Shown piece by piece: positions 1,003 to 56,189 of a stretch of DNA of 64,000 nt. The translations under genes and the position numbers were made by a program. How positions within the stretch are numbered: the first letter of the stretch is position 1; every line of letters begins with the position of its first letter. The notes under the pieces were generated by a model, which was not told the origin of the DNA, did no database searches, and saw only the letters and a program-made list of their open reading frames with translations. The DNA comes from Xylanimonas protaetiae. GTDB lineage: Bacteria; Actinomycetota; Actinomycetes; Actinomycetales; Cellulomonadaceae. The DNA lies in contig NZ_CP035493.1 in NCBI RefSeq assembly GCF_004135385.1, forward strand, positions 372,001-436,000, in the 5' to 3' direction.

Positions 1003-1003
1003 G

Positions 1004-1945: not shown

Positions 1946-2014
1946 GGGTGACCGCTCCTTCTGAACTGATCTGGGGTGGGCGCGACCCCGGCGCAGCACT
2001 CTAGCGTGCAGCGG

Positions 2015-5874: not shown

Positions 5875-7175
5875 TCAGGCGCGCGATCCCTCGCCGAGCA
5901 CGATGCGGGGCGTCCCTGCCCAGAGGGCGCCGTCCGTGACACGACGCCCATCGACGAGAAGCCGCACGCCCGGGATGTCCGCGGGCGTCAGCGTTCGGTA
6001 ATCGGCGTGATCGGTCTGCACCACCGCAAGATGGGCCGGCTCACCCGTGTGGTAGACGTCGAAACCGAGCTTCAGCAGTTCCGCATCAGTGAAGAGCGGG
6101 TCGTGAACGAGCACTTGAGCGCCGCGCCTGCGCAGCGCGTCGGACGTCGCGAACACACCGGACAACGCAGTCTCTTTCACTCCGCTGCGGTACGCCGCGC
6201 CCAGCACGACGGCCCGAAGGCCGCTCAGGTCGCCGAGGATCTCCTCGGCGCGCGAGACCATGCGTTCTGGCATCTCCGCGTTGACCCGGCGAGCGTCGCG
6301 CACAATCGTCGCGTCAGGGTCCACTGACAGGTAGAGGCGCGGGTACACAGGAATACAGTGACCGCCGACTGCGATCCCGGGGCGGTGGATGTGGCTGTAG
6401 GGCTGTGAGTTGCAGGCCTCGATGACCGCGTACACATCGAGTCCCACCTTGTCGGCGAAGAGCGCGAACTGGTTCGCGAGGCCGATGTTGACGTCACGGA
6501 ACGTGGTCTCGGCGAGCTTCGCAAGCTCGGATGCTTCGGCTGAACCGAGATCCCAGACGCCGTTCGGTCGGGCCAGATCAGTACGTTCGTCGAAGTCGAG
6601 AACCGCCTCGTAGAATGCGCGCGCGCGCTGGGCGCCGACTGCGCTGAGTCCCCCGACGAGCTTCGGATACCTGCGGAGGTCGGCGAACACGCGACCGGTG
6701 AGGACCCGCTCGGGCGAGAAGACCAAGTGGAAGTCCTCCCCTTCCTTGAGGCCGGAGATCTCTTCGATCATCGGCATCCACCGGTGACGCGTGGTGCCAA
6801 CGGGCAAGGTTGTCTCGTAAGACACCAGTGTGCCCGGGGTCAGGTGCGCGGCGAGCGACTTCGTGGCCTCGTCCATCCACCCGAAGTCCGGCTGGGCTGT
6901 CTCCTCATCGACGAAGAGCGGTACGACGAGCACGACTGCGTCGGCGCCCGGTACGGCGTCACCGTAGTCGGTGGTGGCGCGAAGGCGGCCGGCAGGGACA
7001 AGCTCAGCGAGCTTCTCGGCCAGGTGTGCCTCCCCGGGAATGGCTCTCTTCCTGCGTTCACCGTCGCGACGGTCTCGTTATTCACATCGACACCGACAAC
7101 CTCATGGCCCTTGCTCGCGAACTGCGCGGCCAGCGGGAGTCCAATCTTGCCCAGAGCGATGACGGCAATGCGCAT
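5875..7175 (-). pseudogene. UDP-N-acetylhexosamine 6-dehydrogenase (WbpA/WecC-like), frameshifted
   Basis: The product would oxidise C6 of a UDP-HexNAc to the uronic acid using NAD. The N-terminus from ATG 7175 (GGAAGGA upstream) has the Rossmann motif ALGKIGLPLAAQFASKGH. The reading frame then breaks at the C4 run at 7032-7035. Adding one base restores an unbroken protein of about 433 residues, continuing EAHLAEKLAELVPAG and then VLVVPLFVDEETAQPDF. The C-terminal part keeps YETTLPVGTTR, the FSPERV motif, the ELAKLAETTFRDVNIGLANQ substrate region and the active-site cysteine in GIAVGGHCIPVYP. The gene is therefore intact except for a single-base deletion, which could be a homopolymer sequencing error or a real loss. 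As written, only a 352-residue fragment from 6933 is open. Confidence 0.8.
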
Positions 7176-7333
7176 CAAGGGGTCCTTCCGGAGAGGAGGC
7201 GGCAGGGGTCCGGCTTATTCGTCGGGACGGGCGCGTTCGTGGCTGCAAGACGTCGCCAACGGTCCACCAGCAGGATACGCGACAATCGGCGGCGGCTCGG
7301 GCGCACCCTTGGATGCGGCGAGCACGGACCGCG

Positions 7334-8308
7334 TCAACTCCGGACGACCCGCTCGAACGGCTCTCCGTCAGGTGTCGAAGGGCTGGCCTGAATATCAAGC
7401 TGGAGTCCGCTGAGGAGCATCTGTGTGCCGATCATGAGTGGTAGCGCGGCCAACATCACCGTCGCGGCCGTCGCCACGGATGAGCTCGCGACTTGGAAGC
7501 AGACCCAGATCGCGACGACCAGACCGAACCCGAAAAGCAGGAGGCCGAGTGCCAGTAGCAGGGCGATGGGAGAGAACGACCAGAGCACGTAGCGATACCA
7601 GATGCGACGCCAGAAGCCCTTCGTCAGAAGCGCCAGGAGTTCCGGCACAACTCGACTCAGGCGGATGCTTGACACCTCATCCCCGTAGACCGCCGGGATC
7701 GGCACATCGACAGCCGGGACTTGAAGGATGTTCAGGTGAACGAGCAGATCGTTCTCGAAACTGTACCGCGACGCCACACGGTCAAGGTCGAGGCGTCGAA
7801 GTACCTGCGTTCGGATCGCCGTGTAGCCGTTCTGCGGGTCGAACAGGTGCCAGTACCCGCTCGCGAGTTTCGTCATGAAGGAGAGAACGACATTCCCGAA
7901 TACCCGGTACCTCGGCATACCACGGAACGACTCGGGCGCGAAGAACCTGTTGGCCTTCGCGAAGCCGTATCCCTGGGTCGTCACCCTCTCGAGGAGCGAG
8001 GGGAGGTAGGCCGGGTCCATCTGAGCGTCACCCGCCATGATGACGTTGACGTCGGCCCCAAGATCCATCGCGTGGCGATGGCCCGTGATGATCGCTCCGC
8101 CGACGCCCTTGTTCACCTCGTGCCGGAGAAGCACGACGCGCGGGTCCGTCGAAGCGCGGACGACCTCGCTTGTGTTGTCGGGGCTGCAGTCGTCGACCAC
8201 GATGATGTGATCGACGAAGTCCGGCATTGTTTCGATGACCGTCGTGATCATCTTCGCCTCGTTGTATGCAGGCACGATCGCAGCGATGCGCGCTCCCTCA
8301 AAAACCAT
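7334..8308 (-). CDS. Membrane-anchored family 2 glycosyltransferase (polyprenol-phosphate type)
   Basis: This 324-residue enzyme is likely to move a sugar from a nucleotide donor to polyprenyl phosphate on the cytoplasmic face. The GT-A domain starts IAAIVPAYNEAKMI, with VVDDCSPDNT near residue 38 and the catalytic-metal site MAGDAQMDP near 90. HLFDPQNGYTAIR near 155 resembles the conserved region of DPM1/GtrB enzymes. Two transmembrane helices follow at about 240-265 (SPIALLLALGLLLFGFGLVVAIWV) and 272-295. Its start lies 10 bases inside the end of the gtrA gene, and GtrA proteins flip such lipid-linked sugars, so the two probably work together. The sugar is unknown. Confidence 0.88.
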   Translation of the reverse strand: MVFEGARIAAIVPAYNEAKMITTVIETMPDFVDHIIVVDDCSPDNTSEVVRASTDPRVVLLRHEVNKGVGGAIITGHRHAMDLGADVNVIMAGDAQMDPAYLPSLLERVTTQGYGFAKANRFFAPESFRGMPRYRVFGNVVLSFMTKLASGYWHLFDPQNGYTAIRTQVLRRLDLDRVASRYSFENDLLVHLNILQVPAVDVPIPAVYGDEVSSIRLSRVVPELLALLTKGFWRRIWYRYVLWSFSPIALLLALGLLLFGFGLVVAIWVCFQVASSSVATAATVMLAALPLMIGTQMLLSGLQLDIQASPSTPDGEPFERVVRS

Positions 8309-8723
8309 CAGACCCCCTCTGTCGAAGTCGCGTGCCGTCGGCCCCGTGGGCGTCGGCGGCGAACACCCACCAGCGGTACGCGAAGAAGTTCGAGACCGTC
8401 GTGACCATCGTCGCGACCACCTTGCCGATGCCCCAGCCTGCGGAGGTCTGGTCGATCAGCGCGACGACCGCGGCGGTGACGACGGTGTTGACCGCCACGA
8501 GGATCGTGTACCGCACCAGCGCGCGACCGTGCGGGGCTCGCGACGCAAACCCGATCCTGCGCTGCACCGAGTATGTGAAAGCAAAACTGAGCAGAAAAGC
8601 CACCGCGGCGGCAACGCCCGTCGGCCAGCCCAGGCCTTCACGAAGCAGCGCGAGAAAGCCGAAGTCGACGGCGAATGCGAGCCCCCCGGCGACGAGGTAC
8701 CGCGCGATGCTGACAGTCATCAT
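8298..8723 (-). CDS. GtrA family membrane protein
   Basis: This is a 141-residue GtrA-like protein with four transmembrane helices at about 7-30, 37-57, 70-95 and 100-122. The family is thought to translocate polyprenyl-phosphate-linked sugars. RYLVAGGLAFAVDFGFLALLR at the N-terminus and SFAFTYSVQRRIGF between helices 2 and 3 are typical family features. It overlaps the following GT2 gene by 11 bases, forming a two-gene lipid-sugar unit. The start may be ATG 8723 or ATG 8720. The 145 bases between this start and the insertion sequence contain no recognisable gene. Confidence 0.85.
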   Translation of the reverse strand: MMTVSIARYLVAGGLAFAVDFGFLALLREGLGWPTGVAAAVAFLLSFAFTYSVQRRIGFASRAPHGRALVRYTILVAVNTVVTAAVVALIDQTSAGWGIGKVVATMVTTVSNFFAYRWWVFAADAHGADGTRLRQRGSDGF

Positions 8724-8859
8724 GCGACACTCCAGATCGCTCGGCGCCCACGAACCGGTGTGTGACGCCTCCGAGCGTTCCAGTTCTGGAGGGCAAGATG
8801 TCGGTCGGGTTGCGCTCGCACGGGAGAAGGCTAGCGGGAGTCGGACCCGACCTCTGTCC

Positions 8860-8867
8860 CCCTAGCC
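8860..8867. repeat. Target-site duplication, left copy
   Basis: CCCTAGCC abuts the left inverted repeat of the insertion sequence. The same 8 bases abut the right inverted repeat at 10356-10363, as expected of a transposition-generated duplication. Its exactness suggests a recent event. Confidence 0.85.
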
Positions 8868-8886
8868 GCAATGCCGCGAAGTTAGG
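8868..8886. repeat. IS left terminal inverted repeat
   Basis: GCAATGCCGCGAAGTTAGG, identical over 19 bases to the reverse complement of 10337-10355. Confidence 0.92.
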
Positions 8887-8990
8887 GCTCTGACCTGGCT
8901 GTCAAGGGGTGTTGGTGCTGGTCATAGCAGCGAAGCTCCTGTAGTTGAGGGCTGTCCGCCAAGACATGCCTTCACCACAGGAGCTTTGCC

Positions 8991-10341
8991 GTGCCGCAGT
9001 CTGCCATCGATCGTGTCGCTCGCGCCTTCGCTCCGGGGCACCTGGGCGAGTTGAGCGCCCTGGTTCCCGTCGAGCTCGTCGATGAGGTGCTGGCCCGTCA
9101 CCGGGCGACCGAGCAGCGCGTACGGCTGCTGCCCTCACGGGTGGTCGTCTACCTGCTGGTCGCGGGTGCGTTGTTCGCGGGCCTGGGCTGGCAGCAGGTC
9201 TGGGACCGGCTGGTCGCCGGCCTCGGGCATGTCGATTCCTGTCCGTCGCGCACCGCGATCGCGCTCGCGCTGCGCCGGGTCGGGCCCGGCCCGTTGCGGT
9301 CGCTGTTCGAGGTCCTGGCCTGCCCGGCACCAGGCTCGACCCGGTGGCGGGGACTGCTGGTGTGCGCGCTGGACGGGACGGTCACCTCGGTGCCTGACAG
9401 CCCGGCCAACACCATCCGGTACGTCAAGCAGCGCGGCGGGCCCACCGGCGGCGGGTCCTACCCCGGGCTGCGGCTGGTCGCGCTCGTCGCGTGCGGGACC
9501 CGCACCCTGATCGATGCGACGTTCGGCCCGACCACGACCGGGGAGACGGTCTACGCGCAGGTCCTGACTCGCTCGCTGCATGCCGGGATGCTGCTGCTGG
9601 CCGACCGCGGCCTGAGCTCGGCGGCGCTGGTCGCCGCAGCCCACGCGAGGGGAGCCCACGTGCTGGTGCGAGCACGTACCGCCGCCGCCAACGGTCCCGC
9701 CCTGCCCGTCACCCGAGCGCTGGACGATGGTTCGTGGCTGTCGATGCTCGGCGCCACACGGGTGCGCGTCATCGACGCTCAGATCACCTCGGCCACGACG
9801 GCTGCGACCACGACCAGCCACTACCGCCTGGTCACCACGCTCCTGGACCCCCGCACCCACCCGGCCGACCAGCTCGCGGGCCTGTACCACCAACGCTGGC
9901 AGGTCGAGACCGCCTACCTCGAGCTGAAGTCGACCATCCTGGGCGGGCGGGTCCTGCGCGCCCGGACCCCCGACGGGATCGAGCAAGAGGTCTACGCCCT
10001 GCTCATCGCCTACCAGGCCCTACGCACCGCCATTGGCCGACGCGACCACCACCACCGCGATCCCGCCCGACCGCGCCAGCTTCACGATCGCGCTGAACGC
10101 CGCACGCGACCAGATCACCGCCAACCGGCACGCCGACGCCACCGATCCCCCGATCGAACTGCTCGGCGTGATCGGCGCCGCGGTCACCGCACGACCACTG
10201 CCAGCAACCCGCCCCCGCACGAACGCCCGCACCGTCAAACGAGCGATCTCCAAGTACAACGCCCGCGGCCCCAACATCGACCGCAAGACCTACAAGACCA
10301 CCCTGACCATCACGATCTTGACAAAACCGACGCCCACCTAA
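8991..10341 (+). pseudogene. IS4-family DDE transposase, frameshifted near the C-terminus
   Basis: The GTG at 8991 follows AGGAG by about 7 bases. The first frame encodes roughly 350 residues. It has the IS4 N-terminal domain (LSALVPVELVDEVLARH), the first catalytic aspartate in ALDGT, the second in LLADRGL, and the family signature Y-(2)-R-(3)-E-(6)-K in YHQRWQVETAYLELK. At 10032-10035 the frame shifts: the bases read ATTGG where ATGG would join YQALRTA to MADATTTTAIPPDRASF. The C-terminal 100 residues then continue in the other frame to the stop at 10339-10341. The catalytic core is complete but the tail is lost as written. No slippery A-run is present, so a programmed frameshift is unlikely. 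Confidence 0.85.
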
Positions 10342-10355
10342 CTTCGCGGCATTGC
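10337..10355. repeat. IS right terminal inverted repeat
   Basis: This is the complement of the left repeat, perfect over 19 bases. The transposase stop TAA (10339-10341) lies within it. Confidence 0.92.
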
Positions 10356-10363
10356 CCCTAGCC
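10356..10363. repeat. Target-site duplication, right copy
   Basis: CCCTAGCC immediately follows the right inverted repeat and matches 8860-8867. Confidence 0.85.
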
Positions 10364-10437
10364 GCCATCCGTCGCCTACCCCGCATGAAGACGCACGATC
10401 GGGGAGACACCTGACGCCATGAACGCGAGCCGGCACG

Positions 10438-12606
10438 TCACGAGCCGGCGGCACCGCGGGCGTAACCGGCGAGGGTCGCGGCCACAGAGTCCGAGACCAC
10501 GCCAGAACTGCCGAGCACGACGACATGTGCCGGCGCTAGGCGCTGCAGTTCCGCCGCAATGACCTCGGGAACGGCGCTGGTCGTCACCAGGAGCACCGGC
10601 CCGCCGCCGGCAGCCGCGGCCGGCGCCCCAGACAGACCGTCCGGGAAGTTCGTTCCCACGGCGACGTAGGCCACTGGCACACCTGGCGCGAAAGTCGCCG
10701 CCGAGATCGCCGCTGAAGTCGAGTACCGATCCGGTCCAGCAAGGCGAGTCACCCCACCGGAGGTCAGCCCATTCAACCGAGTAGCCACCGCGTCCGAAAC
10801 CACGCCCGCACTACCGAGCACCACGATCCGACCCGGACGCAGACGCCGCAGCTCTCCCTCGACAACGCTCGGAACCCCGTTGGTCTCGACCAACAACACC
10901 GGGCCCTTCCCGGCGGCCGCCGCAGAAGCACCCGACAGCGCATCGGGGAAGTCCGTTCCGACGGCGACGTAGGCCACTGGCACACCTGGCGCGAAAGTCG
11001 CCGCCGAGATCGCCGCTGAAGTCGAGTACCGATCCGGTCCAGCAAGGCGAGTCACCCCACCGGAGGTCAGCCCATTCAACCGAGTAGCCACCGCGTCCGA
11101 AACCACGCCCGCACTACCGAGCACCACGATCCGACCCGGACGCAGACGCCGCAGCTCTCCCTCGACAACGCTCGGAACCCCGTTGGTCTCGACCAACAAC
11201 ACCGGGCCCTTCCCGGCGGCCGCCGCAGAAGCACCCGACAGCGCATCGGGGAAGTCCGTTCCGACGGCGACGTAGGCCACTGGCACACCTGGCGCGAAAG
11301 TCGCCGCCGAGATCGCCGCTGAAGTCGAGTACCGATCCGGTCCAGCAAGACGGGTCACCCCGGCGAAGTAGGGGGCATAGAGGCCCGCGTACTGGGCAGC
11401 AGCTGCTCGGATGCCGGGCAGCACTGCGTAGCCCAGGTCACCAGGGCACTGTGTCTGGTGGGTGTCGCGGTGAGCGAACACCCGTGGCAGGACGACCTGC
11501 TGGCCCGCAACGAACCGGCCGCCCGCGGTCTGGCTGGCGGCAGTGAAGGTCGTCGACTCCGCTGGGTTGACGCCATACTGAGCGAGGCGGTACCCGATGA
11601 TCTTGGCAACACCGTCCTGCTGCGCGGCTGAGGGCGTCACGCCCGCCGCGGTGGTGTAGCTGCCGAGCATTGCGACACCGACGGTGCCCGTGTTGAACCC
11701 GCCCGTGTGCGCCCCGATGATCGGGGCGTCAACGCTGCCTGCGGCGCCCTCGTAGATGTTGCCCCATTTGTCGACGATGAAGTTGTAGCCGATGTCGCAC
11801 CAGCCGTTGGAGTTCTGGTGGTAGGCCTGATCGTTGCGGATAAGCTGCATCGCTTCCGCCACCGAGCTGTAGCTGTTCGCATTGTCGGTGTGATGGACCG
11901 CCGCGCCCTTCAGTGCGGACGCTGCGGGCCACGCGCAGGCGGGCGCAGCTCGCCACTCGCTGCGAGTGATGATGGTGGGACCAGCGGTGGTCCCAGCAGG
12001 AGCGACCACGCCAGCACTCGTCGCCGCAGGTGCGTCGACCTTGTCCGAGGACACCGTGGTGACCTGCACACCGGAGGGAACGGTGAGCGCGGCGTCGACC
12101 GTCGCGATCTCAAGCGCATCGGACTCCCCCACGTAGACCGGGCTCGACGAGACAGTCCTCGTCTCCCGGTCGGGTCCGTCTGTCTCCCTCTCTAGATGGG
12201 TCCATCCTCCCCAGGCGCCATCCGTGTCACGAACCCGCACCTGAAGATCTGGCATCGCGCTGTCGACGTCAGCGGGCCAGCTCACACCGACAGTCTGGAA
12301 GCCTTCGGCAACCTCCATCGGCGCCTCCGCGTTCGCGTCCACTGTCTCGACGTCCGCCGCTGTCGGGCCCGCCTCAGGCAGGACGGAGTCCGTGGCGCCC
12401 GCCTGGTCCGAGGTGCCCTGCACGCGATGCGGTGCCGCCGCCGCTGGCGCCGCGGTGATGACGGCTGACGCAGACATCGCGATCACGGCGGCACTGCCGA
12501 CTGCAAGCGCCCCTCGGGCCGCGGCACCCGGGGCCTTCACGGACAACCGTGATCCGCGACCCGCAGTGCTCGTCGTGCGACGGGCTGGCCCTAGCTCGTG
12601 TCTCAA
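10438..12606 (-). CDS. Secreted PGRP-type N-acetylmuramoyl-L-alanine amidase with three CWB2 modules
   Basis: This 722-residue wall enzyme probably cleaves the lactyl-peptide bond of peptidoglycan. It has a long Sec signal (hydrophobic ALAVGSAAVIAMSASAVITA, cleavage near AAA-APH about residue 59) and a beta-rich region at 80-190. The amidase domain at about 205-395 shows the zinc/catalytic residues in VHHTDN, GYNFIVDKWGNIYEG, AHTGGFN and AHRDTHQTQCPGD. Three cell-wall-binding repeat 2 modules follow (about 415-715), each starting VTRLAGPDRYSTSAA. Modules one and two are almost identical copies. The start is TTG at 12606, with GGAG 5 bases upstream. CWB2 triplets anchor proteins non-covalently to anionic wall polymers in Clostridium. 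The position inside a polymer locus suggests the ligand is made here; that link is inference. Confidence 0.9.
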   Translation of the reverse strand: MRHELGPARRTTSTAGRGSRLSVKAPGAAARGALAVGSAAVIAMSASAVITAAPAAAAPHRVQGTSDQAGATDSVLPEAGPTAADVETVDANAEAPMEVAEGFQTVGVSWPADVDSAMPDLQVRVRDTDGAWGGWTHLERETDGPDRETRTVSSSPVYVGESDALEIATVDAALTVPSGVQVTTVSSDKVDAPAATSAGVVAPAGTTAGPTIITRSEWRAAPACAWPAASALKGAAVHHTDNANSYSSVAEAMQLIRNDQAYHQNSNGWCDIGYNFIVDKWGNIYEGAAGSVDAPIIGAHTGGFNTGTVGVAMLGSYTTAAGVTPSAAQQDGVAKIIGYRLAQYGVNPAESTTFTAASQTAGGRFVAGQQVVLPRVFAHRDTHQTQCPGDLGYAVLPGIRAAAAQYAGLYAPYFAGVTRLAGPDRYSTSAAISAATFAPGVPVAYVAVGTDFPDALSGASAAAAGKGPVLLVETNGVPSVVEGELRRLRPGRIVVLGSAGVVSDAVATRLNGLTSGGVTRLAGPDRYSTSAAISAATFAPGVPVAYVAVGTDFPDALSGASAAAAGKGPVLLVETNGVPSVVEGELRRLRPGRIVVLGSAGVVSDAVATRLNGLTSGGVTRLAGPDRYSTSAAISAATFAPGVPVAYVAVGTNFPDGLSGAPAAAAGGGPVLLVTTSAVPEVIAAELQRLAPAHVVVLGSSGVVSDSVAATLAGYARGAAGS
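10658..11349. repeat. Tandem 303-bp duplication of a CWB2 module
   Basis: By eye, bases 10658-11046 are identical to 10961-11349, an offset of 303 bp (101 codons). The match ends at single differences at 10657/10960 and 11047/11350. The third module, nearer the stop, is related but clearly diverged. Perfect identity at synonymous sites indicates recent duplication or gene conversion. Confidence 0.92.
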
Positions 12607-12715
12607 CGTGGCTCCAAGTGGACGTGCTTCGCGCTGGCTGCAAGTGACGACGTGTGACGAACATAGCGAACCGAGGCGCGCCGGGGAACCGCGTCCGCAG
12701 CCAAAGCAGCACGGC

Positions 12716-12721
12716 TAGCAT
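12716..12721 (+). promoter_or_regulatory. Putative -10 box TAGCAT for the epimerase operon
   Basis: TAGCAT matches the TANNNT pattern and lies 8 bases before GTG 12730. That spacing is expected for a leaderless transcript. Confidence 0.45.
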
Positions 12722-12729
12722 CGGTGCCC

Positions 12730-13797
12730 GTGAAGATCCTCAGCGTCGTCGGTGCACGCCCGCAGTTCGTCAAGCTCGCACCGATCGCTCGTGCCGCCAC
12801 CGACGCAGGCGTAGACCACGTCATCGTCCACACCGGGCAGCACTACGACCCCATGTTGTCCGACGTCTTCTTTCGTGAGCTCGGCATCCCCGACCCGGAC
12901 GTGCACCTCGGTGTCGGCTCCGCGAGTCACGGCGTCCAGACTGGAGCCATCCTGGGCGCCCTCGACGGCGTGCTGGAGGAGCATCGGCCAGACTGGGTGC
13001 TCGCCTACGGCGACACGAACTCGACATTGGCTGCTGCGATCGCCGCGGTCAAGCTCCACTATCCCCTGGCGCATCTTGAGGCCGGGCTCCGCTCGTTCAA
13101 CCGGCGGATGCCAGAGGAACTCAACCGCGTGCTAACTGACCACGCTGCGGACCTGTGCCTGGCCCCGACAGAGGTCGGCATGAAGCACCTTGTGGACGAG
13201 GGCCTTGCCGATCACTCCATCCTCGTCGGCGACGTGATGACGGACGTGCTCCTCCAGGTCCGCGATGCCGTGGCCGACCGCGAAGTACCGCTGCTCGATG
13301 ACCTGGGCCTGGAACGCCAGGGCTTCTACATTGCCACCCTCCACAGGGCGGAGAACACGGACGACCCGGCGCGTCTGGACGCCGTCATCCAAGGCCTCAG
13401 CGAGCTCGACCACCCCGTCGTCCTCCTCGCACACCCGCGCGTCGTTGCGAAGGCGACGGAGCACGGCCTGACGCTCGAACGAGGCGCACTGCGCCTGCAC
13501 ACGCCACTCGGCTACCCGGACCTCGTGGCCGCCGTACTGGCCTCGGCCGGGGTTGTCACGGACTCGGGCGGCCTCCAGAAGGAGGCATTCCTCTTGCGGA
13601 CCCCCTGCACCACGATTCGACCCGAGACGGAGTGGGTGGAGACCGTCGCGCTGGGATGGAACGTCCTGGCCAACACGGCCGACGAGATCCGGGAAGCCGT
13701 GGCGCGTCCGATGCCCACGCCAACGTCGGAGCAGCCCTACGGTGACGGACACGCAGCGCGGCGTGTGGTCGAGGTACTGGCGGCGTCGCGCCGATGA
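12730..13797 (+). CDS. wbpI: Non-hydrolysing UDP-sugar 2-epimerase (WbpI/WecB family)
   Basis: The product inverts C2 of a UDP-GlcNAc-type sugar. MKILSVVGARPQFVKLAPI is the family N-terminus, which supports GTG 12730; a frame from GTG 12724 adds two residues. Conserved HTGQHYD near residue 36, YGDTNSTLA near 95, HLEAGLRSFNRRMPEE near 115, NRVLTDH and the C-terminal TDSGGLQKEA near 278 are all present. The SFNRRMPEE-NRVLTD pattern is closer to WbpI, which acts on UDP-GlcNAc(3NAc)A, than to enterobacterial WecB as I recall them. The presence of WbpB/E/D homologues in the locus supports that substrate. It is the first gene of an ATGA-overlapping operon with a GT4 and a flippase. Confidence 0.85.
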   Translation: MKILSVVGARPQFVKLAPIARAATDAGVDHVIVHTGQHYDPMLSDVFFRELGIPDPDVHLGVGSASHGVQTGAILGALDGVLEEHRPDWVLAYGDTNSTLAAAIAAVKLHYPLAHLEAGLRSFNRRMPEELNRVLTDHAADLCLAPTEVGMKHLVDEGLADHSILVGDVMTDVLLQVRDAVADREVPLLDDLGLERQGFYIATLHRAENTDDPARLDAVIQGLSELDHPVVLLAHPRVVAKATEHGLTLERGALRLHTPLGYPDLVAAVLASAGVVTDSGGLQKEAFLLRTPCTTIRPETEWVETVALGWNVLANTADEIREAVARPMPTPTSEQPYGDGHAARRVVEVLAASRR

Positions 13798-14891
13798 AAA
13801 TTCTCCTCGTCACACCATGGTTCCCGACGACCGTGGCGCCCGAGTCCGGACTCTTCGTGCTCCGGGACGCGCTGGCCCTGGCCATGGTCGCCGACGTGTC
13901 AGTGCTCCATCTCGACTGGAACAGTGACACGACCAGCCTTGCCGGGATCGATCCTGCGATCCGCGTGCAGCGGGTGCGGCTCGACCGGCGCGACCCACGC
14001 GCATATCTTCGGGCGCGAAAGCACGTCCGCGCGGCAGCGCGTCAGGCGGATGTCGTGCACACTCATGCCCTCACTGGACTCGTCCCGTTCCTCGTTGGGC
14101 GCCCTGCTCCGGCACGTTCGCCGTGGGTGCACACCGAGCACTGGTCCGGGCTGACCGCTTCGGAGACGCTCGGACGCGCGGAGCGCGTCATGAGACGGCT
14201 CCTCCTTCCCGTGTTGCGGCGTCCGGACGTCGTCGTGGTGGCCTGTCGTCGACTCGCCGAGCCGATCGGGGCGCTACGACGAGGACGTGTCGAAGTGGTG
14301 CCCTGCGTCGTGGACGACCCACCTCAGGTCCGAGAAGCAACGCGCGATCCGCACCTTCTGCGCCTCGTTGGTGTCGGAGGTCTGATCGACCGGAAGGGCC
14401 CGCTGACCGCACTCGCAACCGTCGCGGAGCTCCGCCGGCGCGGGATGCCCGCACAGTTGACGTGGGTTGGAACGGGGCCGCTCCGCGAAGCGGTGCTCGA
14501 TGCGGCGAAAGAGGCGGGGCTCGAGGAAGACGTGCATCTGGCCGGTGCGCTGCCTCCCGCAGAGGTCGCAGCCGAGCTCGACGCGGCCGACATGTTCATC
14601 CTCCCGACGAGCGGTGACAACTTCTGCGTCGTGGTCGCAGAGGCGCTGACGCACGGCCGTCCCGTGGTCAGCGGGGCGTCGACAGGAGCGGTCGACTACG
14701 CGGTCGCCGCGGTCAGCGAGTTCGTGGAGAGCAGGGACGCGTTCGCCTACGCCGACGCCGTGGTGTCGCTGAGGGAGCGAACAGCGCGGATGTCCGCAGC
14801 CGACATCGCGGGCACCGTCCGTGGTGCGTTCAGCTCCGAGGCGGTCGCTCATCGTCTCATGGCCGTGTATGGCCAGCTCGTGCACCCATGA
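13794..14891 (+). CDS. Family 4 glycosyltransferase
   Basis: This is a 365-residue GT-B enzyme. The N-terminal domain starts MKILLVTPWFPTTVAPESG, the usual GT4 opening. The C-terminal donor-binding domain has LVGVGGLIDRKGPLTALATV near residue 190, LTWVGTGPLREAV near 220, and the E-x7-E-like segment LPTSGDNFCVVVAEALTHGRPVVSG near 265-290. The ATG overlaps the epimerase stop by four bases and its own stop overlaps the flippase start, so the three genes are one translational unit. It probably adds a nucleotide-activated sugar, perhaps the diacetamido uronic acid, to the growing lipid-linked chain. The donor is not determined. Confidence 0.87.
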   Translation: MKILLVTPWFPTTVAPESGLFVLRDALALAMVADVSVLHLDWNSDTTSLAGIDPAIRVQRVRLDRRDPRAYLRARKHVRAAARQADVVHTHALTGLVPFLVGRPAPARSPWVHTEHWSGLTASETLGRAERVMRRLLLPVLRRPDVVVVACRRLAEPIGALRRGRVEVVPCVVDDPPQVREATRDPHLLRLVGVGGLIDRKGPLTALATVAELRRRGMPAQLTWVGTGPLREAVLDAAKEAGLEEDVHLAGALPPAEVAAELDAADMFILPTSGDNFCVVVAEALTHGRPVVSGASTGAVDYAVAAVSEFVESRDAFAYADAVVSLRERTARMSAADIAGTVRGAFSSEAVAHRLMAVYGQLVHP

Positions 14892-16360
14892 GCGAGAAGC
14901 GTCGCGACACGCGCACGGGTCGTCCGGGCAGGTTCGACCTCGCCCTGTCGACCGCCGGGACCATCGCGAGCGGCGTCGTCCGACTGCTCTACAACGTCCT
15001 GCTCGGTAATCTGCGTGGTGCGACGTTCCTCGGGAACGCGAGCAGCGCATTGTCCGTCGCGATGTTCGCGGCCATCGTCCAACCACAGGCCGTCGCTACA
15101 GCAGCAACCACTTTCGTGCCCAGGGCCGCAGGCGCATCGCCACGACACCAGGACTGCGACGCCGCACCCGCAGTTGCGTGGTATCTGGCGCGATACCTCG
15201 TGAGTGCCGCCGCACTCGTCGGGATCGGCGCGGGCGCGACCGCGTACTTCGTGCTGGCGACCGGGCCGACGGCGGCGGTCATGACCGCGCTGGTGACGAT
15301 CGGCTACTCCGCCTACATCTTTGCGCGCGCACTCCAGTTCGCGACCTTTCGTGCAGTTCGGGCGGCGCGCGCAGACCTCGTGGCCGGCGTCGTCGCCCTC
15401 GCCCTTCTCGTGGCATTCCTGACTCTTCACCTCGACTCCCTGATCCTGCTCCCGCTCGCCCTCGGCTACGGCGTAGCCGCGTCAAGCATCTGGCCGCGCC
15501 GCGACACCCGGATCTCCCCCGGGCTCAGGGCCGAGTTGCGCAGGTTCATCGCGATCGGGAGCATCGGCGCGCTCGCCACCGGCGGGTTCCTCCAGCTGTC
15601 GATGATCACGGCTCGAGTGATCGGTACGAGCGAGCAAGCGGGCCAGTACGCCGCAGCCCTCTCGCTCGCCACGCCGCTCTCGATGCTGTCCACGGCGATC
15701 AGCATGGTCGTGGTGCCCGCGATGGGCGCCGCCGTCGGCGGGTCCGACGACGCGCGCTTCAGGCATCTCGTTGACGAGGCGGTCCGAGGCGTCTCAGCCG
15801 TGTCGCTCGCAGGTTTCGGCCTCGTCGCCGGCCTCAGCTCCATCATCGTCCCGCTCCTGTACCGCGACGGGTTCGAAGACGCTGCTCCAGTCCTCGCGAT
15901 CCTTGCGGTCGCGATGCTCACCATGACCGCGACGATGCCTCTGATGAACGCCCTCATCGTCCGATCGCCACGGGGCGTCCGCACGACGACGGTGATCTCC
16001 GTCATCGCGACCGTGCTCGGGGTCGTCGTCTGGGCCGCGTTTGGGCCGCGCTACGGGATCACCGCGGTCGCCTTCGGCGTCCTCGCCGGCAACGTCACCG
16101 CGCTGGCCTCCATGGGCGTCCTCGTAGCCCGCGCCGAGCGGTTCGACTGGCGGGGTCTCGCGCTTCGCCACGGTGTCGTCCTGGTCGCAACAGCCGCACT
16201 GGCGATCCACGGGGCCGCCACGAATGAAGGCATCATCCTCACGCTCGGAATGACCCTCGCGGTCCTCGCACTCTGGTCGGTCCTCGTGGCGATGCCGGAT
16301 AGAGCGGCGATCCTTGGCCTCCTCGGGTTGCGGGCGCGCGGAAGCAGTCACGCCGCATAA
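14888..16360 (+). CDS. Wzx-like polysaccharide flippase (MOP superfamily)
   Basis: This 490-residue protein has about 12-14 transmembrane helices and a basic N-terminus (STAGTIASGVVRLLYNVLLG at about residues 18-37). It resembles oligosaccharide flippases of the MATE/MOP superfamily, which move undecaprenyl-linked repeat units outward. A typical central feature is GSIGALATGGFLQLSMI near residue 225 followed by TSEQAGQYAAALSLATPLSML. It closes the wbpI-GT4-wzx operon. With Wzm/Wzt at the left end of the window, two export routes exist in one locus, suggesting two polymers or an acquired second system. It converges on the next gene with only 6 bases between stops and no obvious terminator. Confidence 0.8.
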   Translation: MSEKRRDTRTGRPGRFDLALSTAGTIASGVVRLLYNVLLGNLRGATFLGNASSALSVAMFAAIVQPQAVATAATTFVPRAAGASPRHQDCDAAPAVAWYLARYLVSAAALVGIGAGATAYFVLATGPTAAVMTALVTIGYSAYIFARALQFATFRAVRAARADLVAGVVALALLVAFLTLHLDSLILLPLALGYGVAASSIWPRRDTRISPGLRAELRRFIAIGSIGALATGGFLQLSMITARVIGTSEQAGQYAAALSLATPLSMLSTAISMVVVPAMGAAVGGSDDARFRHLVDEAVRGVSAVSLAGFGLVAGLSSIIVPLLYRDGFEDAAPVLAILAVAMLTMTATMPLMNALIVRSPRGVRTTTVISVIATVLGVVVWAAFGPRYGITAVAFGVLAGNVTALASMGVLVARAERFDWRGLALRHGVVLVATAALAIHGAATNEGIILTLGMTLAVLALWSVLVAMPDRAAILGLLGLRARGSSHAA

Positions 16361-16366
16361 CCCTCT

Positions 16367-17530
16367 TCAGGTGCGCAGACGGCGTGACTCGAGCACCACC
16401 TGCGCCGCGCGGGCACCAGTTGCCTGGACTGAGGCGTTGGCCGCTGCCCATGCTGCGAGTTCGGCGCGGCGTTCCCGGGTGGGCGCGTCGGACAACGCCT
16501 CAATCATTGCGGCGGCCACGGCATTGTCGTCGTAATCCGTCGCCCAGCCGAGGTCGCCGTCCAGTACCGCCTCGTACCCTGGCCCGGGACCCGCAAAGAC
16601 TACTGGCGTCCCACACGCGACAGAGGCCAAGATCTTGGTCGGAAACGCGAAGTCGTAGCCAAGTCCGGGCCGCAGACTCACGAGCCCCGCTCTTGCCGAG
16701 CCGAGGATCTCGGCCGCATGCGCGGGAGGAACGGGCCCGCGGACTTCGATGGCGCCGTCCGGCAGACTAGCCGCTATCCGTCGGATCTCATCGAGTTCGC
16801 TCCCCTGCCCTATGAACACCAGTCGTGCACCCGGGACGGCCACGCGGACCTGGGCGAATGCACGCGCGAACACCGAAGCGCCCTGCCACTCCGAGGCCGT
16901 ACCGGCGTATACGGCGGTGGGTTGTGAGTCGACTACCTCGTCAAGCGGCCGGAAGACAGCAGTGTCGATGCCGTTGCGGATCACGGTGATGTTGCGGCCG
17001 CCCAGTGCCGCAACGCGTTCGGCCACGCCATCCGACACCGCGATGACTCGCTGCGCGCCTCGCATCGCGAACGATTCGAGTGTTCGCAGGACACGCACCA
17101 CCAGCCCCGACGCCCCCATCGATGCGCTTGCATCGGACCAGACGTCCGCTGCGTAGTAAACGTAGGGGGCTCGGCGCACGGCGCAGGCGAGCCTGACGAC
17201 GACGCCCGTCGTGGGCGGGGGCTCCGAGACGACGGCGTCGACGCGGGGCCCGAAGAGCAACCGGAAGAACAGCGGCAGGTCGAAGCTCATGTATTGGACG
17301 TAGCCGCGAATGTACCCGGCCTTGTCGCGCAGGGCGGGCCAGCGACGGATCATGACCCGTTCGTCGAATGGCACGGAGTCGTCGCCCGGGACCGTCGTGG
17401 TGATCACGCTGACCGCGGCCCCCTCGCCCGCCAGCGCCGACGCCAGCGCGGAGAGACGGAACGACGCAGCCGCGGCCTCTGGAAGGAAGATCCGAGTCGC
17501 GACGGCGACGCGCGGCCGTCCCTTGGTCAC
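16367..17530 (-). CDS. Family 4 glycosyltransferase (WbuB-like)
   Basis: The 387-residue GT-B enzyme starts at GTG 17530, overlapping the stop of the upstream oxidoreductase as GTGA. RPRVAVATRIFLPEAAAASFRL opens the acceptor domain. DAVVSEPPPTTGVVVRLAC and YYAADVWSDASASMGAS resemble WbuB/WcaI-type transferases of O-antigen loci. The donor domain has AVYAGTASEWQGASVFARAF near residue 210, LVFIGQGSELDEIRRI near 240, and IEVRGPVPPAHAAEILGSARAGLVSL with the late glycine-rich VACGTPVVFAGPGPGYEAV. It is the last gene of the wbpD-wbpE-wbpB-GT4 unit, a position expected for the enzyme that uses the sugar made by the other three. Confidence 0.87.
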   Translation of the reverse strand: MTKGRPRVAVATRIFLPEAAAASFRLSALASALAGEGAAVSVITTTVPGDDSVPFDERVMIRRWPALRDKAGYIRGYVQYMSFDLPLFFRLLFGPRVDAVVSEPPPTTGVVVRLACAVRRAPYVYYAADVWSDASASMGASGLVVRVLRTLESFAMRGAQRVIAVSDGVAERVAALGGRNITVIRNGIDTAVFRPLDEVVDSQPTAVYAGTASEWQGASVFARAFAQVRVAVPGARLVFIGQGSELDEIRRIAASLPDGAIEVRGPVPPAHAAEILGSARAGLVSLRPGLGYDFAFPTKILASVACGTPVVFAGPGPGYEAVLDGDLGWATDYDDNAVAAAMIEALSDAPTRERRAELAAWAAANASVQATGARAAQVVLESRRLRT

Positions 17531-18513
17531 AGGGAGACCGAGCTCCCGCTCGCAGCAGACGCGAGGGCCGCCTCGCAGACGAGCAACGTCATGACGCCCT
17601 GCTCCATGGTGACAATGTCATTCTGGACGCCCAAGACCGCGTCCCGGAGTGCTTCGTGCTCGGCCCTCAGAGGTTCCCGCTTAGCAAACGCGAACCGCGT
17701 GATGTCGCCCTCAGAGACGCCGCGGAACGCAGTGACGGCCTCCCACTCGGTCTGAATGAGACCGTTGGCGAAGAAGGTCAGGTCACCGGTCGACGTGTCC
17801 GCCACAAAGGCGCCTCGTTCGCCGGTCACGACACAGAGGCGCTCCTTCATCGGGGAGAGCCAGTTGATGGTGTGGTTGACCATCACGCCGTTCTTGAGAC
17901 GACCCGTCGCGACGACCATATCCTCGTGCTGGCGCCCCGAACGGTGCGTCGTCTGCGCCGACAGCGATGCGTACTCGCTCTGGGCCACCCACGCCGTGAG
18001 GTCGAAGTCGTGCGCACCAAGGTCCTTGATCACTCCGACATCGGCAATGCGGGCCGGGAACGGGCCCTGCCGACGCGTGGCGATCTGGTAGACCTCGCCG
18101 AGCTCGCCCGCCTCGATCCGTCGACGCATCTCCTGAAGGGCGGGGTTGTACCTCTCGACGTGACCCACCGCACCGACCAGGCCCGCCCGCGCAAAGGCCG
18201 CCGCCATGCGCTCGCCCGCGCCTGACGTGTCGGCGATGGGCTTCTCCACCATCGTGTGCACGCCAGCAGCGGCCAGCTTGAGCGCTGCGTCCTCGTGAAA
18301 CGCCGTAGGGACGGCCACCACCGCCAGGTCGAGCCCGACGGCGATCAGGCTCTCGACATCGGGCAGCACCTCGACACCGTGCGCGACGCCGAACCTGTCA
18401 CCGCCCGGGTCAGCAATCGCGACCAGGTCGACCCCGTCCACCTCGCGCAGAACACGAGCATGGTGGCGACCCATCGATCCGATGCCCAGCAAGCCCGCAC
18501 GCAGGTTTCCCAT
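17527..18513 (-). CDS. wbpB: Gfo/Idh/MocA oxidoreductase, WbpB-like UDP-GlcNAcA 3-dehydrogenase
   Basis: The 328-residue enzyme has an N-terminal NAD domain, AGLLGIGSMGRHHARVLREV, near residue 4. The family motif VEKPIAD sits near residue 97, VGHVERYNPA near 120 and the substrate-side IKDLGAHDFDLTAW near 165. WbpB/WlbA enzymes oxidise C3 of UDP-GlcNAcA to a 3-keto sugar for the adjacent aminotransferase. The ATG at 18513 overlaps the aminotransferase stop by one base (TGATG), and its stop overlaps the GT4 start. Substrate assignment rests on the neighbouring WbpE- and WbpD-like genes, because Gfo/Idh/MocA enzymes are diverse. Confidence 0.85.
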   Translation of the reverse strand: MGNLRAGLLGIGSMGRHHARVLREVDGVDLVAIADPGGDRFGVAHGVEVLPDVESLIAVGLDLAVVAVPTAFHEDAALKLAAAGVHTMVEKPIADTSGAGERMAAAFARAGLVGAVGHVERYNPALQEMRRRIEAGELGEVYQIATRRQGPFPARIADVGVIKDLGAHDFDLTAWVAQSEYASLSAQTTHRSGRQHEDMVVATGRLKNGVMVNHTINWLSPMKERLCVVTGERGAFVADTSTGDLTFFANGLIQTEWEAVTAFRGVSEGDITRFAFAKREPLRAEHEALRDAVLGVQNDIVTMEQGVMTLLVCEAALASAASGSSVSL

Positions 18514-19538
18514 CAGGCGCCCGCCTTCGCGGTGGCGTTGACGCCAGCGACGATCCGCTCGAGGTCGTCCTGCGTGAGCGACGGGTGAACCGGCAACGAG
18601 AGCACGGATCTCGCCGCGACCTCTGTGTTCGGTAGGTCGAGACCCGGCGCGTAGGGCGCGAGCGAGGCAAGACGGTGGTTCGGGATGGGGTAATACGCGC
18701 CCGAACCGACGTTGTACTCCTCGCGCAGGGCCCGCTGAAAGCCATCGCGGTCGTCGTCGACAAGGATCGTGTACTGGTGGTAGACGTGCGTCGCGCTCGG
18801 GTCGACGTACGGCGTGACGACCCCGTGGAGGTTGGCGTCAAGAATCGCCGCGTTTTCCTGGCGAGTCTTCGTCCACGCCTCCAGCTTGGTGAGCTGGACC
18901 CGTCCGATGGCAGCGTGGATGTCCGTCATGCGTGCGTTGAAGCCAACGACCTCGTTGGCGTACTGCTTCTCCATGCCCTGGTTGCGCAACAGACGGACGC
19001 CGTGTGCGATCTCGTCGACACACGAGACCATGCCCCCCTCGCCCGACGTCATGTTCTTGGTCGGGTACAGGGAGAACACACCGAAACTGCCGAAGGTGCC
19101 GACCGGCTGGCCCATCCACGTCGAACCATGCGCCTGGGCTGCGTCCTCAAAGACGGCAATGCCGAACTCCTCAGCGAGCGAGGTGAACGCCGACATGTTG
19201 GCTGCCTGGCCGTACAGGTGGACGGGCATGACCGCCTTCGTGCGCGGCGTGATCGCGGCGCGAACCGATGCGGGATCGAGATTGAAGGTGCGCGGGTCGA
19301 TGTCCGCGAACACTGGTGACGCACCCGCCAGGGCGACCGAGTTGCCCGTCGCGGCGAACGTGAACGAGGGCACGATGACCTCGTCCCCCGGACCGATGCC
19401 TGCGGCGAGGAGGCCAAGGTGGAGGCCCGAGGTGCCGGAGTTGACGGCGACCGACGTACGGCCGGCGACCATCTTCTCGGCAAACTCCTTCTCGAAGGCC
19501 GCAACCTCGGGACCCTGCGCGATCATGCCGGATCGCAT
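18513..19538 (-). CDS. wbpE: DegT/DnrJ/EryC1-family PLP aminotransferase, WbpE-like; N-terminus broken
   Basis: WbpE transfers an amino group to C3 of the 3-keto uronic acid. The open frame from ATG 19538 encodes 341 residues: MRSGMIAQGPEVAAFEKEFA, the PLP-phosphate loop VNSGTSGLHLGLLAAGIGPG, EDAAQAHGS, and the Schiff-base lysine in SLYPTKNMTSGEGGM. Family members normally have about 22 more residues (FxPxAKPVIGDEE...). These are encoded just upstream but in another frame, from GTG 19606, which overlaps the wbpD stop. The break coincides with a G6 run at 19587-19592, and a seventh base would restore the full protein. No in-frame start exists between 19606 and 19538. The real gene is probably 18513-19606 with either a sequencing error or a true deletion. 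Confidence 0.85.
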   Translation of the reverse strand: MRSGMIAQGPEVAAFEKEFAEKMVAGRTSVAVNSGTSGLHLGLLAAGIGPGDEVIVPSFTFAATGNSVALAGASPVFADIDPRTFNLDPASVRAAITPRTKAVMPVHLYGQAANMSAFTSLAEEFGIAVFEDAAQAHGSTWMGQPVGTFGSFGVFSLYPTKNMTSGEGGMVSCVDEIAHGVRLLRNQGMEKQYANEVVGFNARMTDIHAAIGRVQLTKLEAWTKTRQENAAILDANLHGVVTPYVDPSATHVYHQYTILVDDDRDGFQRALREEYNVGSGAYYPIPNHRLASLAPYAPGLDLPNTEVAARSVLSLPVHPSLTQDDLERIVAGVNATAKAGA

Positions 19539-19602
19539 GACGCGATCGACCGCCGCGCGCTCCTCGTCACCGATGACTGGCTTGGCGGGGGGATGAACGT
19601 GC

Positions 19603-20199
19603 TCACTTGCTGGCCACCTCTCGGATGCTTCCGTCGAACTCCTCGTAGACCGTACCGGTCTGCGGGCACCTCCAGACGTCTCTGTCCTTCACGAGTGGCG
19701 CGCCGGCGTGCCCGACCCAGCCGACCTGCCGAGCCGGCACGCCCATGACGATCGCGTGTGTAGGGACGTCGCGCGTGACGACGGCTCCTGCCGCGACCGT
19801 GGCCCACGCCCCGATCGTCACCGGCGCGACGCACACCGCGCGCGCTCCGATCGATGCTCCGTCGCCGATCGTCACGCCGACGGCGTGCCAGTCGTCTGCA
19901 CTCTTCAGTGACCCATCGGGGTTGACCGCACGCGGGTACTGGTCGTTCGTCAGCACGACTGCCGGACCGATGAACACACCGTTGCCGAGTATCGCCGGCT
20001 CGTAGACGAGGGCATAGTTCTGAACCTTGCAGTGATCTCCCAGGTGCACACCGGTTCCGAGGTACGCACCTCGCCCGACGATGCACCCCCTGCCGATCGT
20101 CACCCGCTCGCGGACCTGCGCCAGGTGCCAGATCGACGATCCGTCGCCAACGACGGCGTCGTCGGACACATCCGCACTCGGCGCGACTCGCACTGCCAT
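19603..20199 (-). CDS. wbpD: Left-handed beta-helix N-acetyltransferase, WbpD-like
   Basis: This 198-residue hexapeptide-repeat enzyme is expected to acetylate the 3-amino group of UDP-GlcNAc3NA with acetyl-CoA. ATG 20199 has GGAGGAG upstream; a longer frame to 20262 has none. The chain is almost entirely I/V-G-x-x hexapeptide turns (VVGDGSSIWHLAQVRERVTIG, VTIGDGASIGARAVCVAP). It ends with the GVPARQVGWVGHAG motif that resembles the WbpD/WlbB C-terminal signature. A short extension with WRCPQTGTVYEE follows. It is the first gene of the overlapping wbpD-wbpE-wbpB-GT4 operon, and the 121-base divergent gap to the GT2 gene at 20321 must hold its promoter. Confidence 0.88.
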   Translation of the reverse strand: MAVRVAPSADVSDDAVVGDGSSIWHLAQVRERVTIGRGCIVGRGAYLGTGVHLGDHCKVQNYALVYEPAILGNGVFIGPAVVLTNDQYPRAVNPDGSLKSADDWHAVGVTIGDGASIGARAVCVAPVTIGAWATVAAGAVVTRDVPTHAIVMGVPARQVGWVGHAGAPLVKDRDVWRCPQTGTVYEEFDGSIREVASK

Positions 20200-20320
20200 G
20201 GGACTCCTCCGTGGAGAGACAACGTGACGGCGAAGGTGGTCATACCTCCGATCCGACGGCAAACACTATCCGAACACCCGTGCCCATCCGGGAGCCATCG
20301 AACCTGGGAGAATGGCGATC

Positions 20321-21013
20321 ATGTCCACCACCGCACGCCCCGACGAGGCTCGCGCCGACACATGGTTCGTCGTACCCACCTTCAACGAGGCCCAGGTCAT
20401 CGGCGACGTCGTCGGCGAGATCTGCGGCCAGGGGTTCTCTGTCGTCGTCGTCGACGACTGCTCGAGCGACGACTCAGGTGCGATAGCACGCGCCGCTGGC
20501 GCCGTGGTCGCGCGCCACGCGACGAACCTCGGTCAGGGAGCGGCGCTCCAGACTGGGATCGAGTTCGCGCTCCGGCGAGGAGCTTCCTACATCGTGACCT
20601 ACGACTCCGACGGACAGCACCGCCTCGTCGACGCCGTTGCCATGCTTGATCTCGCCGTCGAGGACGGGCTCGGTTTCGTGTTCGGCTCACGCTTTCTCGA
20701 CAACCGCACCCAGACTGGCCGCATCAAGAAGATGGTGCTTCGGTTCGCGGCCTGGTTCACGCGTCAGTCGACCGGCATGAAACTCACGGATGCCCACAAC
20801 GGGCTACGGGTGATCCGCGCCGACGTCGCCCGAGCGATAGACCTCCGCCAGAATCGCATGGCTCACGCCAGCGAAATCGTCACGCAACTGGGTCGCTCCA
20901 AGCAACCCTGGGCGGAGTACCCGGTCCACGTGCTCTACACCGACTACTCGCGCAGCAAGGGTCAGAGCCTCTGGAACTCCGTCAACATCCTTGTCGACCT
21001 CCTCATCCGATAG
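20321..21013 (+). CDS. Family 2 glycosyltransferase (polyprenyl-phosphate mannose/glucose type)
   Basis: The soluble GT-A enzyme has about 230 residues. FVVPTFNEAQVIGDV opens the domain, VVDDCSSDDSG sits near residue 42 and the DxD-like site YDSDGQH near 85. GSRFLDNR and LTDAHNGLRVIR match the DPM1-like subgroup. ATG 20321 is favoured because GGGAG lies about 10 bases upstream; ATG 20312 is too close to that site. It is followed 7 bases later by a DUF2304 membrane protein, a pairing common in actinobacterial and archaeal sugar loci, where the small protein anchors or assists the transferase. The donor is unknown. Confidence 0.85.
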   Translation: MSTTARPDEARADTWFVVPTFNEAQVIGDVVGEICGQGFSVVVVDDCSSDDSGAIARAAGAVVARHATNLGQGAALQTGIEFALRRGASYIVTYDSDGQHRLVDAVAMLDLAVEDGLGFVFGSRFLDNRTQTGRIKKMVLRFAAWFTRQSTGMKLTDAHNGLRVIRADVARAIDLRQNRMAHASEIVTQLGRSKQPWAEYPVHVLYTDYSRSKGQSLWNSVNILVDLLIR

Positions 21014-25413: not shown

Positions 25414-26448
<1,035 letters not shown>

Positions 26449-26505: not shown

Positions 26506-26590
26506 CGTCCAGCTCCGTAAGCGCGCCGCGCTTCACAAACCCTGCACCTGTTGCGCTCGTCGGGGCCGGAAGCCCCCGACACCTGCCACG

Positions 26591-26596
26591 TATGCT
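26591..26596 (+). promoter_or_regulatory. Putative -10 box TATGCT for the LCP operon
   Basis: TATGCT lies 8 bases before GTG 26605, and there is no ribosome site between them. This suggests a leaderless mRNA and supports that start over the longer frame from 26551. Confidence 0.5.
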
Positions 26597-26604
26597 CAGT
26601 CCCC

Positions 26605-44341: not shown

Positions 44342-44573
44342 GACCGAAAAGCGTACCCGTGACCTGCGACTTCACGACAGTGTGAGCAAAACCTCACGGT
44401 TTACGCGCCAGAAACCTTCCTGTCACCTCTTGTGCACGGCTTCACGAGGTGTGAATCTTGAATCAGTTCCCACCCGTCCCATCGCACCGGCTCACCTGCG
44501 CCTTCGTCCGGCTTCTGTCGGCCCGCGGAGAGCTGCGGTACCGGAAACCCCCTCGACTCCAAAGGAGAACGAC

Positions 44574-56115: not shown

Positions 56116-56155
56116 CGTTGCGCCTCCAGGGCGTCGTAAGCGAGAAGAAGGGGTG

Positions 56156-56169
56156 TGGGAGCGTTCCCA
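56156..56169. promoter_or_regulatory. CebR-like operator TGGGAGCGTTCCCA
   Basis: This LacI-type operator lies 41 bases before the cellobiose phosphorylase start and has one asymmetric base at the centre. Confidence 0.87.
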
Positions 56170-56189
56170 CGATCGCGCCGATCATAGCG

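Follow-up and report, generated by a model that had tools for sequence, protein, structure and literature searches.

A probable UDP-ManNAc3NAcA wall-polymer locus in Xylanimonas protaetiae with a 3-dehydrogenase distinct from WbpB

Which nucleotide sugar is made by a cell-wall locus of Xylanimonas protaetiae that carries relatives of the Pseudomonas genes wbpA, wbpB, wbpE, wbpD and wbpI (abbreviated below as A, B, E, D and I), and by which route? The window, that is, the whole stretch of 64,000 nucleotides that was analysed, corresponds to C1:372001-436000 of the single-contig 3.86 Mb genome, and gene families were assigned by NCBIfam, Pfam and Protein Data Bank (PDB) searches of the window proteins. 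Judged from these assignments, the locus probably directs the synthesis of UDP-2,3-diacetamido-2,3-dideoxy-D-mannuronic acid (UDP-ManNAc3NAcA) and builds from it an anionic wall polymer of the teichuronic-acid-like kind. The sequence-only reading had proposed a complete set of five wbp-type genes. The set is real, but that reading needs amending in two respects: a frame change splits the WbpA-type gene, and the presumed WbpB is not a member of WbpB/WlbA. Each of the remaining four genes has an open frame that agrees, exactly or closely, with the position assigned to it earlier (Table 1), and the opposed directions of transcription in the locus were confirmed. By its strong family matches and its nested occurrence across genomes, the five-gene set exceeds chance.

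The 3-dehydrogenase and the 2-epimerase

The oxidoreductase that had been taken for WbpB was compared with a set of oxidoreductases from named plasmid loci. It gave no BLASTP match at E 1e-3 to the WbpB or WbpB-like proteins of Pseudomonas frederiksbergensis, Deinococcus radiophilus and Sulfitobacter, which have the motif NIGxHFxD in common and of which the first two score 574 and 426 bits against WbpB entries of the PDB. It aligned with a Haloferax mediterranei protein (31% identity, 98.6 bits) and with two proteins from a group of large genomes described below (61-62% identity), and all of these carry the motif DLxxHDxD. Orthologues from the large-genome group reached just 38-44 bits against the WbpB type, with two of the three proteins. 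The top PDB match in both direct and profile searches was 7bvj, which we take to be GnnA; the WbpB entries 3oa2 and 3o9z were absent among the 22 matches at 1e-10 and among the best 60 of the 91 profile matches at 1e-5. Membership in WbpB/WlbA was rejected, since there was no BLASTP match at 1e-3 and DLxxHDxD stands in place of NIGxHFxD. The earlier assignment survives as kinship at the superfamily level only; by sequence, the enzyme sits with the archaeal/GnnA-type UDP-N-acetylglucosamine (UDP-GlcNAc) 3-dehydrogenases.

The best PDB matches of the epimerase were the Thermus UDP-GlcNAc3NAcA 2-epimerase entries (8sxv, 369 bits), followed by 4neq (256 bits), CapG (171 bits) and Bacillus/E. coli-type entries (~103-130 bits; E. 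coli WecB type 125). An excerpt of PMC10622841 describes three substitutions in UDP-GlcNAc3NAcA 2-epimerase that suit its bulkier substrate. Two of them recur in an alignment of the window protein with its homologues (60 rows in all, identity at least 54%): among the rows with a letter at the site, all 59 have Trp and 57 of 58 have Tyr. At the Tyr site, Gln or His is found in three remoter homologues from the same loci; two of these have a letter at the Trp site, one Arg and the other Ser. With this best match and two of the three specificity residues, the enzyme belongs to the UDP-GlcNAc3NAcA-type epimerases.

The acyltransferase matched PDB entry 3mqg best (118 bits, the next entry reaching 76). 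We take 3mqg to be WlbB, and the protein is accordingly of the WbpD/WlbB type. The 6-dehydrogenase, previously read as WbpA, does belong to the TIGR03026 family, but the NCBIfam models for archaeal UDP-ManNAc dehydrogenase and WecC outscore TviB (205 and 145 versus 74 bits), and its gene is broken here.

Co-occurrence of the genes and a proposed route

Among 248 genomes of the order with completeness of at least 95%, counted at set thresholds per gene, WbpI was found in 64, WbpA in 80, the B-like gene in 87 and WbpD in 100. The distribution is nested: all 64 WbpI genomes also have WbpA, the B-like gene and WbpD, and all 80 WbpA genomes have the B-like gene. One genome has the B-like gene without D, and 16 combine A, B-like and D but lack I; the latter fit gluco-configured polymers, such as the S. 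antibioticus one in an excerpt of PMC13274773. The diacetamido sugar proposed earlier is supported, the epimerase being nearest to a proven UDP-GlcNAc3NAcA 2-epimerase, the acyltransferase nearest to 3mqg, and A, B-like and D present in every WbpI genome of the sample.

We also gathered 80 named loci with the B-like query and counted gene presence in the fetched stretches: B-like 80 (by construction), E 78, D 74, A 42 and I 35. Five large genomes (7-9 Mb; group f31/g103, which we take to be Streptomyces) encode B-like proteins 58-62% identical to that of the window, and each carries four of the five gene types in the 20 kb fetched, in one case with ribosomal L27 beside WbpD. Seven genomes have the B-like gene without a close WbpA, and one of them, G261, has B-like, E and D without any TIGR03026 match at E 1e-20. 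No WbpA-type gene was found beside the B-E-D trio in the 20 kb fetched from G261, G097 and G204 (loci L134, L135 and L136), where the trio adjoins Wzm/Wzt and a gene that by eye resembles UDP-galactopyranose mutase. Perhaps these three loci make a neutral 2,3-diacetamido sugar polymer. As a separate observation, an actinobacterial-type wbp locus also occurs on two contigs (L095 and L062) whose titles, Vibrio cholerae 35D and Sporosarcina beigongshangi, may be wrong.

Because G261 has no TIGR03026 match and the trios of G261, G097 and G204 have no WbpA-type gene in the 20 kb fetched, we favour, as an indication and not as proof, a route in which the trio acts on UDP-GlcNAc first and C6 is oxidised afterwards. 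UDP-GlcNAc would be oxidised at C3 by the archaeal/GnnA-type dehydrogenase, aminated at that position and N-acetylated to UDP-GlcNAc3NAc, which the WbpA-type enzyme would then oxidise at C6; epimerisation at C2 by the WbpI-type enzyme would be the last step, yielding UDP-ManNAc3NAcA. Namboori and Graham reportedly proposed this order of steps for Methanococcus. The chain would be built by GT4 and GT2 glycosyltransferases, exported by a flippase and/or Wzm/Wzt and attached to the wall by LytR-CpsA-Psr (LCP) proteins, and the polymer may be a docking site for two wall hydrolases that have three CWB2 repeats each. If an archaeal-type UDP-GlcNAc 3-dehydrogenase catalyses step 2 in Actinobacteria, different substrates and a different order of steps are to be expected. 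Taken as a single proposition, an archaeal-type route in Actinobacteria (C3 amination and acetylation before C6 oxidation, with a non-WbpB 3-dehydrogenase) plus a polymer that serves as docking ligand for the CWB2 hydrolases of the same locus is speculative, and we regard it as unlikely to hold in full.

Alternative readings, CWB2 proteins and the broken frame

Several results weigh against synthesis of UDP-ManNAc3NAcA by this pathway. The best NCBIfam model for the 3-dehydrogenase, NF040723 (archaeal UDP-GlcNAc 3-dehydrogenase), scores 194.5 bits, below its curated cut-off of 450. The aminotransferase, judged by its matches, does not alone fix the product, because WbpE (3nyu), perosamine synthase and QdtB score 235, 241 and 214 bits, respectively; the first match is 7b0d (274 bits), WbpE being among the best but not at the top. 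In 14 of the 248 genomes D occurs without the B-like gene. Other results would suit two separate sugars, the WbpI/WbpA-like pair making UDP-ManNAcA in the style of WecB/WecC and the B-E-D trio independently making UDP-GlcNAc3NAc. The second distinct PDB match of the epimerase, at 256 bits, is 4neq, labelled UDP-GlcNAc 2-epimerase, and at the third specificity site (Ala18 in Thermus) all 58 rows with a letter have Leu, which the excerpt of PMC10622841 links to UDP-GlcNAc epimerases. The scores of the 6-dehydrogenase and the three trios without a WbpA-type gene point the same way, as does G002, from the same genus, a possible exception to the linkage of the genes, which has WbpI and WbpA and in which B-like and D were not found in the 39 kb fetched, the rest of the genome not having been searched. 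The 4neq match and G002 give this explanation slightly more weight, at the expense of the single pathway. The epimerase, with its Trp and Tyr and its best match at 369 bits, argues against two sugars, and so does the B-like gene, missing from none of the 80 A genomes and none of the 64 I genomes; overall, we find this explanation improbable. Better placed, yet still doubtful, is the same product reached in the Pseudomonas order, with C6 oxidised first and a 3-dehydrogenase of another subfamily acting on UDP-GlcNAcA. This is the characterised order according to the excerpt of PMC10622841, and of the seven B-like genomes that lack a close WbpA, six carry some TIGR03026 gene, which leaves G261 and family resemblance as the main grounds for the order favoured here. 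The Pseudomonas order is at odds with G261, which keeps B-like, E and D without a TIGR03026 match, and with the nearest named families of the oxidoreductase, which are UDP-GlcNAc 3-dehydrogenases; GnnA oxidises the 3-OH of UDP-GlcNAc, as stated in an excerpt of PMC5644692.

The proposed docking was weighed separately. Two proteins of the locus contain three PF04122 stretches each and are therefore triple-CWB2 proteins. Residues ~41-280 of the larger one (21385-24672) form a conserved cysteine-rich domain, which gave no Pfam match at 1e-3 and which a model suggests to be lysozyme-superfamily-like; this domain also occurs near the wbp loci of several Microbacteriaceae, often without CWB2 in the fetched stretch. 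CWB2 lies within 10 kb of wbp genes in at least 9 of the 17 genomes that hold both, and in at least 5 of 12 genera, where ~0.6 would be expected under uniform placement, a model that ignores the clustering of wall genes and uses approximate CWB2 gene numbers (matches divided by about three). The 17 comprise 16 of the 248 sampled genomes, selected for having both CWB2 and B-like, and G002, which was included on the strength of CWB2 genes already seen nearby and irrespective of B-like; without it the count is 8 of 16 among the matches listed. Among the matches listed, no CWB2 lies within 10 kb in G193, G249, G086, G214, G253, G262, G048 and G032, and none was detected by a hidden Markov model (HMM) in the fetched stretches of G193, G249, G086, G214 and G262, which cover the 10-kb zones in part. 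An obligate partnership of CWB2 with the sugar was rejected, again to the detriment of the proposed reading: 9 of the 248 genomes have CWB2 and WbpI, against 10.6 expected (p=0.70). It is close to an even chance that the CWB2 proteins are neighbours merely through the clustering of wall genes and do not bind the polymer. Besides the missing genome-level association, 32 of the 41 CWB2 genomes lack WbpI, and CWB2 was found in just 7 of the 80 named loci with an HMM built from the six repeats of the window; the proximity to wbp genes in at least 9 of the 17 genomes argues to the contrary. This clustering with CWB2 hydrolases offers a concrete candidate ligand for actinobacterial CWB2 repeats, for which we found no reported ligand in the literature listings searched.

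The broken frame of the 6-dehydrogenase gene in the window sequence is a further point against the proposed reading, and because of it the sugar pathway may be off in this strain. The gene is in two pieces: the N-terminal one (7056-7175) has 40 aa, and the other (5875-7077) is a stop-to-stop frame of 400 aa. Between 7056, where the former ends, and residue 13 of the latter (7041) lie 14 nt; the corresponding gap is 15 nt in L013, L015, L018 and L019 and 6 nt in L017 and L021, two loci with a match that begins three residues earlier, and the homologues of all six relatives are in frame. The sole other TIGR03026 match in the genome at E 1e-20 (C1:679230-680360) shows ~26% identity over 309 residues. 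Upstream of gtrA-GT2-wbpA lies an IS4-type insertion sequence (IS) with 25-nt terminal repeats that are 92% complementary. Of its four near-identical copies in the genome, two have an open 463-aa transposase frame, and single-base indels shift the frame in the remaining two, one of them the copy in the window. Decay or switching-off of the locus in this strain, perhaps by selection against the polymer as a receptor, is possible, with chances somewhat short of even. It would agree with the broken frame, with the IS upstream of the operon and with the resistance of utr mutants to an umbrella toxin described in the excerpt of PMC13274773; the remaining four sugar genes are open, which speaks against it, and assembly error is possible because single-base indels also separate the near-identical IS copies. 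Either decay or assembly error could be the source of both breaks, in the wbpA-type gene and in the transposase.

Neighbouring genes and comparison with known systems

Of the surrounding genes named in the sequence-only reading, the two GT4 glycosyltransferases, Wzm/Wzt and the two LCP proteins were recovered by Pfam; the presumed Wzx matched only MurJ, below the cut-off (Table 1). Third-position GC is 0.76-0.83 in open reading frames up to 25.3 kb (chosen by a GC-frame script) and 0.88-0.98 from rmlB (25417-26448) onward, with an exception of 0.76 at 44307-44822. From this rise at ~25 kb, the wall-polymer locus may be an acquired island. Farther along the window, a large gene at 53632-56181 by eye resembles a GH94-type phosphorylase.

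Table 1. Coordinates of the features in the window
Feature	Coordinates	Strand	Basis
Wzt-like ATPase (1-1002) and Wzm-like permease (1004-1999)	1..1999	-	Pfam
Two-domain GT2	2015..3592	-	Pfam
WbpA-type nucleotide-sugar 6-dehydrogenase, split by frame change	5875..7175	-	TIGR03026 on both pieces
GT2 glycosyltransferase	7334..8308	-	PF00535
GtrA-like membrane protein	8298..8723	-	PF04138
IS4-type insertion sequence, transposase frame shifted	8862..10361	+	PF13006/PF01609; terminal repeats
Amidase_2 protein, three C-terminal CWB2 repeats	10438..12606	-	Pfam; PVLL motif three times
Predicted WbpI-type UDP-2,3-diacetamido-glucuronate 2-epimerase	12724/12730..13797	+	8sxv 369 bits; Trp, Tyr specificity residues
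GT4 glycosyltransferase	13794..14891	+	Pfam
Possible Wzx/MurJ-like flippase	14888..16360	+	PF03023 21 bits, below 27.4-bit cut-off
GT4 glycosyltransferase adjoining the B-E-D trio	16367..17530	-	Pfam; best-hit homologue in 44/80 named loci
Gfo/Idh/MocA 3-dehydrogenase, archaeal/GnnA-type, not WbpB/WlbA	17527..18513	-	NF040723 194.5 bits; PDB 7bvj; DLxxHDxD
DegT-family 3-aminotransferase (WbpE role), start codon uncertain	18513..19538 or ~19607 (upstream start)	-	PF01041
Hexapeptide N-acetyltransferase (WbpD/WlbB role)	19603..20199	-	best PDB 3mqg
GT2 glycosyltransferase, divergent from the trio	20312..21013	+	Pfam; best-hit homologue in 33/80 named loci
Protein with ChW repeats, three CWB2 repeats and an N-terminal domain resembling the lysozyme superfamily; probably secreted	21385..24672	-	
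Two LCP proteins (26551-28044 and 27684-29558)	26551..29558	+	PF03816 in each

Geobacillus had been cited as the Gram-positive precedent; a nearer one is Streptomyces griseus, whose wall contains a GalNAc/ManNAc3NAcA teichuronic-acid-like polymer demonstrated by nuclear magnetic resonance (NMR), as described in the excerpt of PMC13274773. According to the same excerpt, the utr genes, placed near ribosomal L27, were assigned by structure modelling and called similar to the Pseudomonas pathway, the authors themselves describing the pathway as not validated by experiment, and in Streptomyces interbacterial toxins use ManNAc3NAcA polymers as receptors. Like the window locus, utr combines a 6-dehydrogenase, an aminotransferase/oxidase pair, an acetyltransferase and a 2-epimerase, assigned to UDP-ManNAc3NAcA, and the large genomes, one with L27 adjacent, carry the related B-like gene. 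The two systems differ in that a polymer is known there from NMR and genes alone are considered here, in that the glycosyltransferase and export genes look different, and in the CWB2 hydrolases of the window locus.

The five reaction types are the same as in Pseudomonas (WbpA, B, E, D and I), and relative to the P. frederiksbergensis set the aminotransferase, acetyltransferase and epimerase are 36-46% identical and the 6-dehydrogenase 31%; however, the 3-dehydrogenase is of another subfamily and the order of steps probably differs. Haloferax mediterranei pHME505 (L133) also has all five gene types and a 3-dehydrogenase with the DLxxHDxD motif (31% identical), although this set is archaeal and forms a single compact, contiguous cluster. 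In Clostridioides difficile, as in the window, triple-CWB2 proteins are encoded beside an anionic wall polymer locus, but an excerpt of PMC4973711 describes PSII as a hexaglycosyl phosphate polymer to which CWB2 binding was shown, whereas binding is only proposed here. ManNAc3NAcA in actinobacterial walls is thus already known; what is added here is the enzyme variant, a non-WbpB step 2, together with a probable change in step order and the clustering with CWB2-bearing wall hydrolases.

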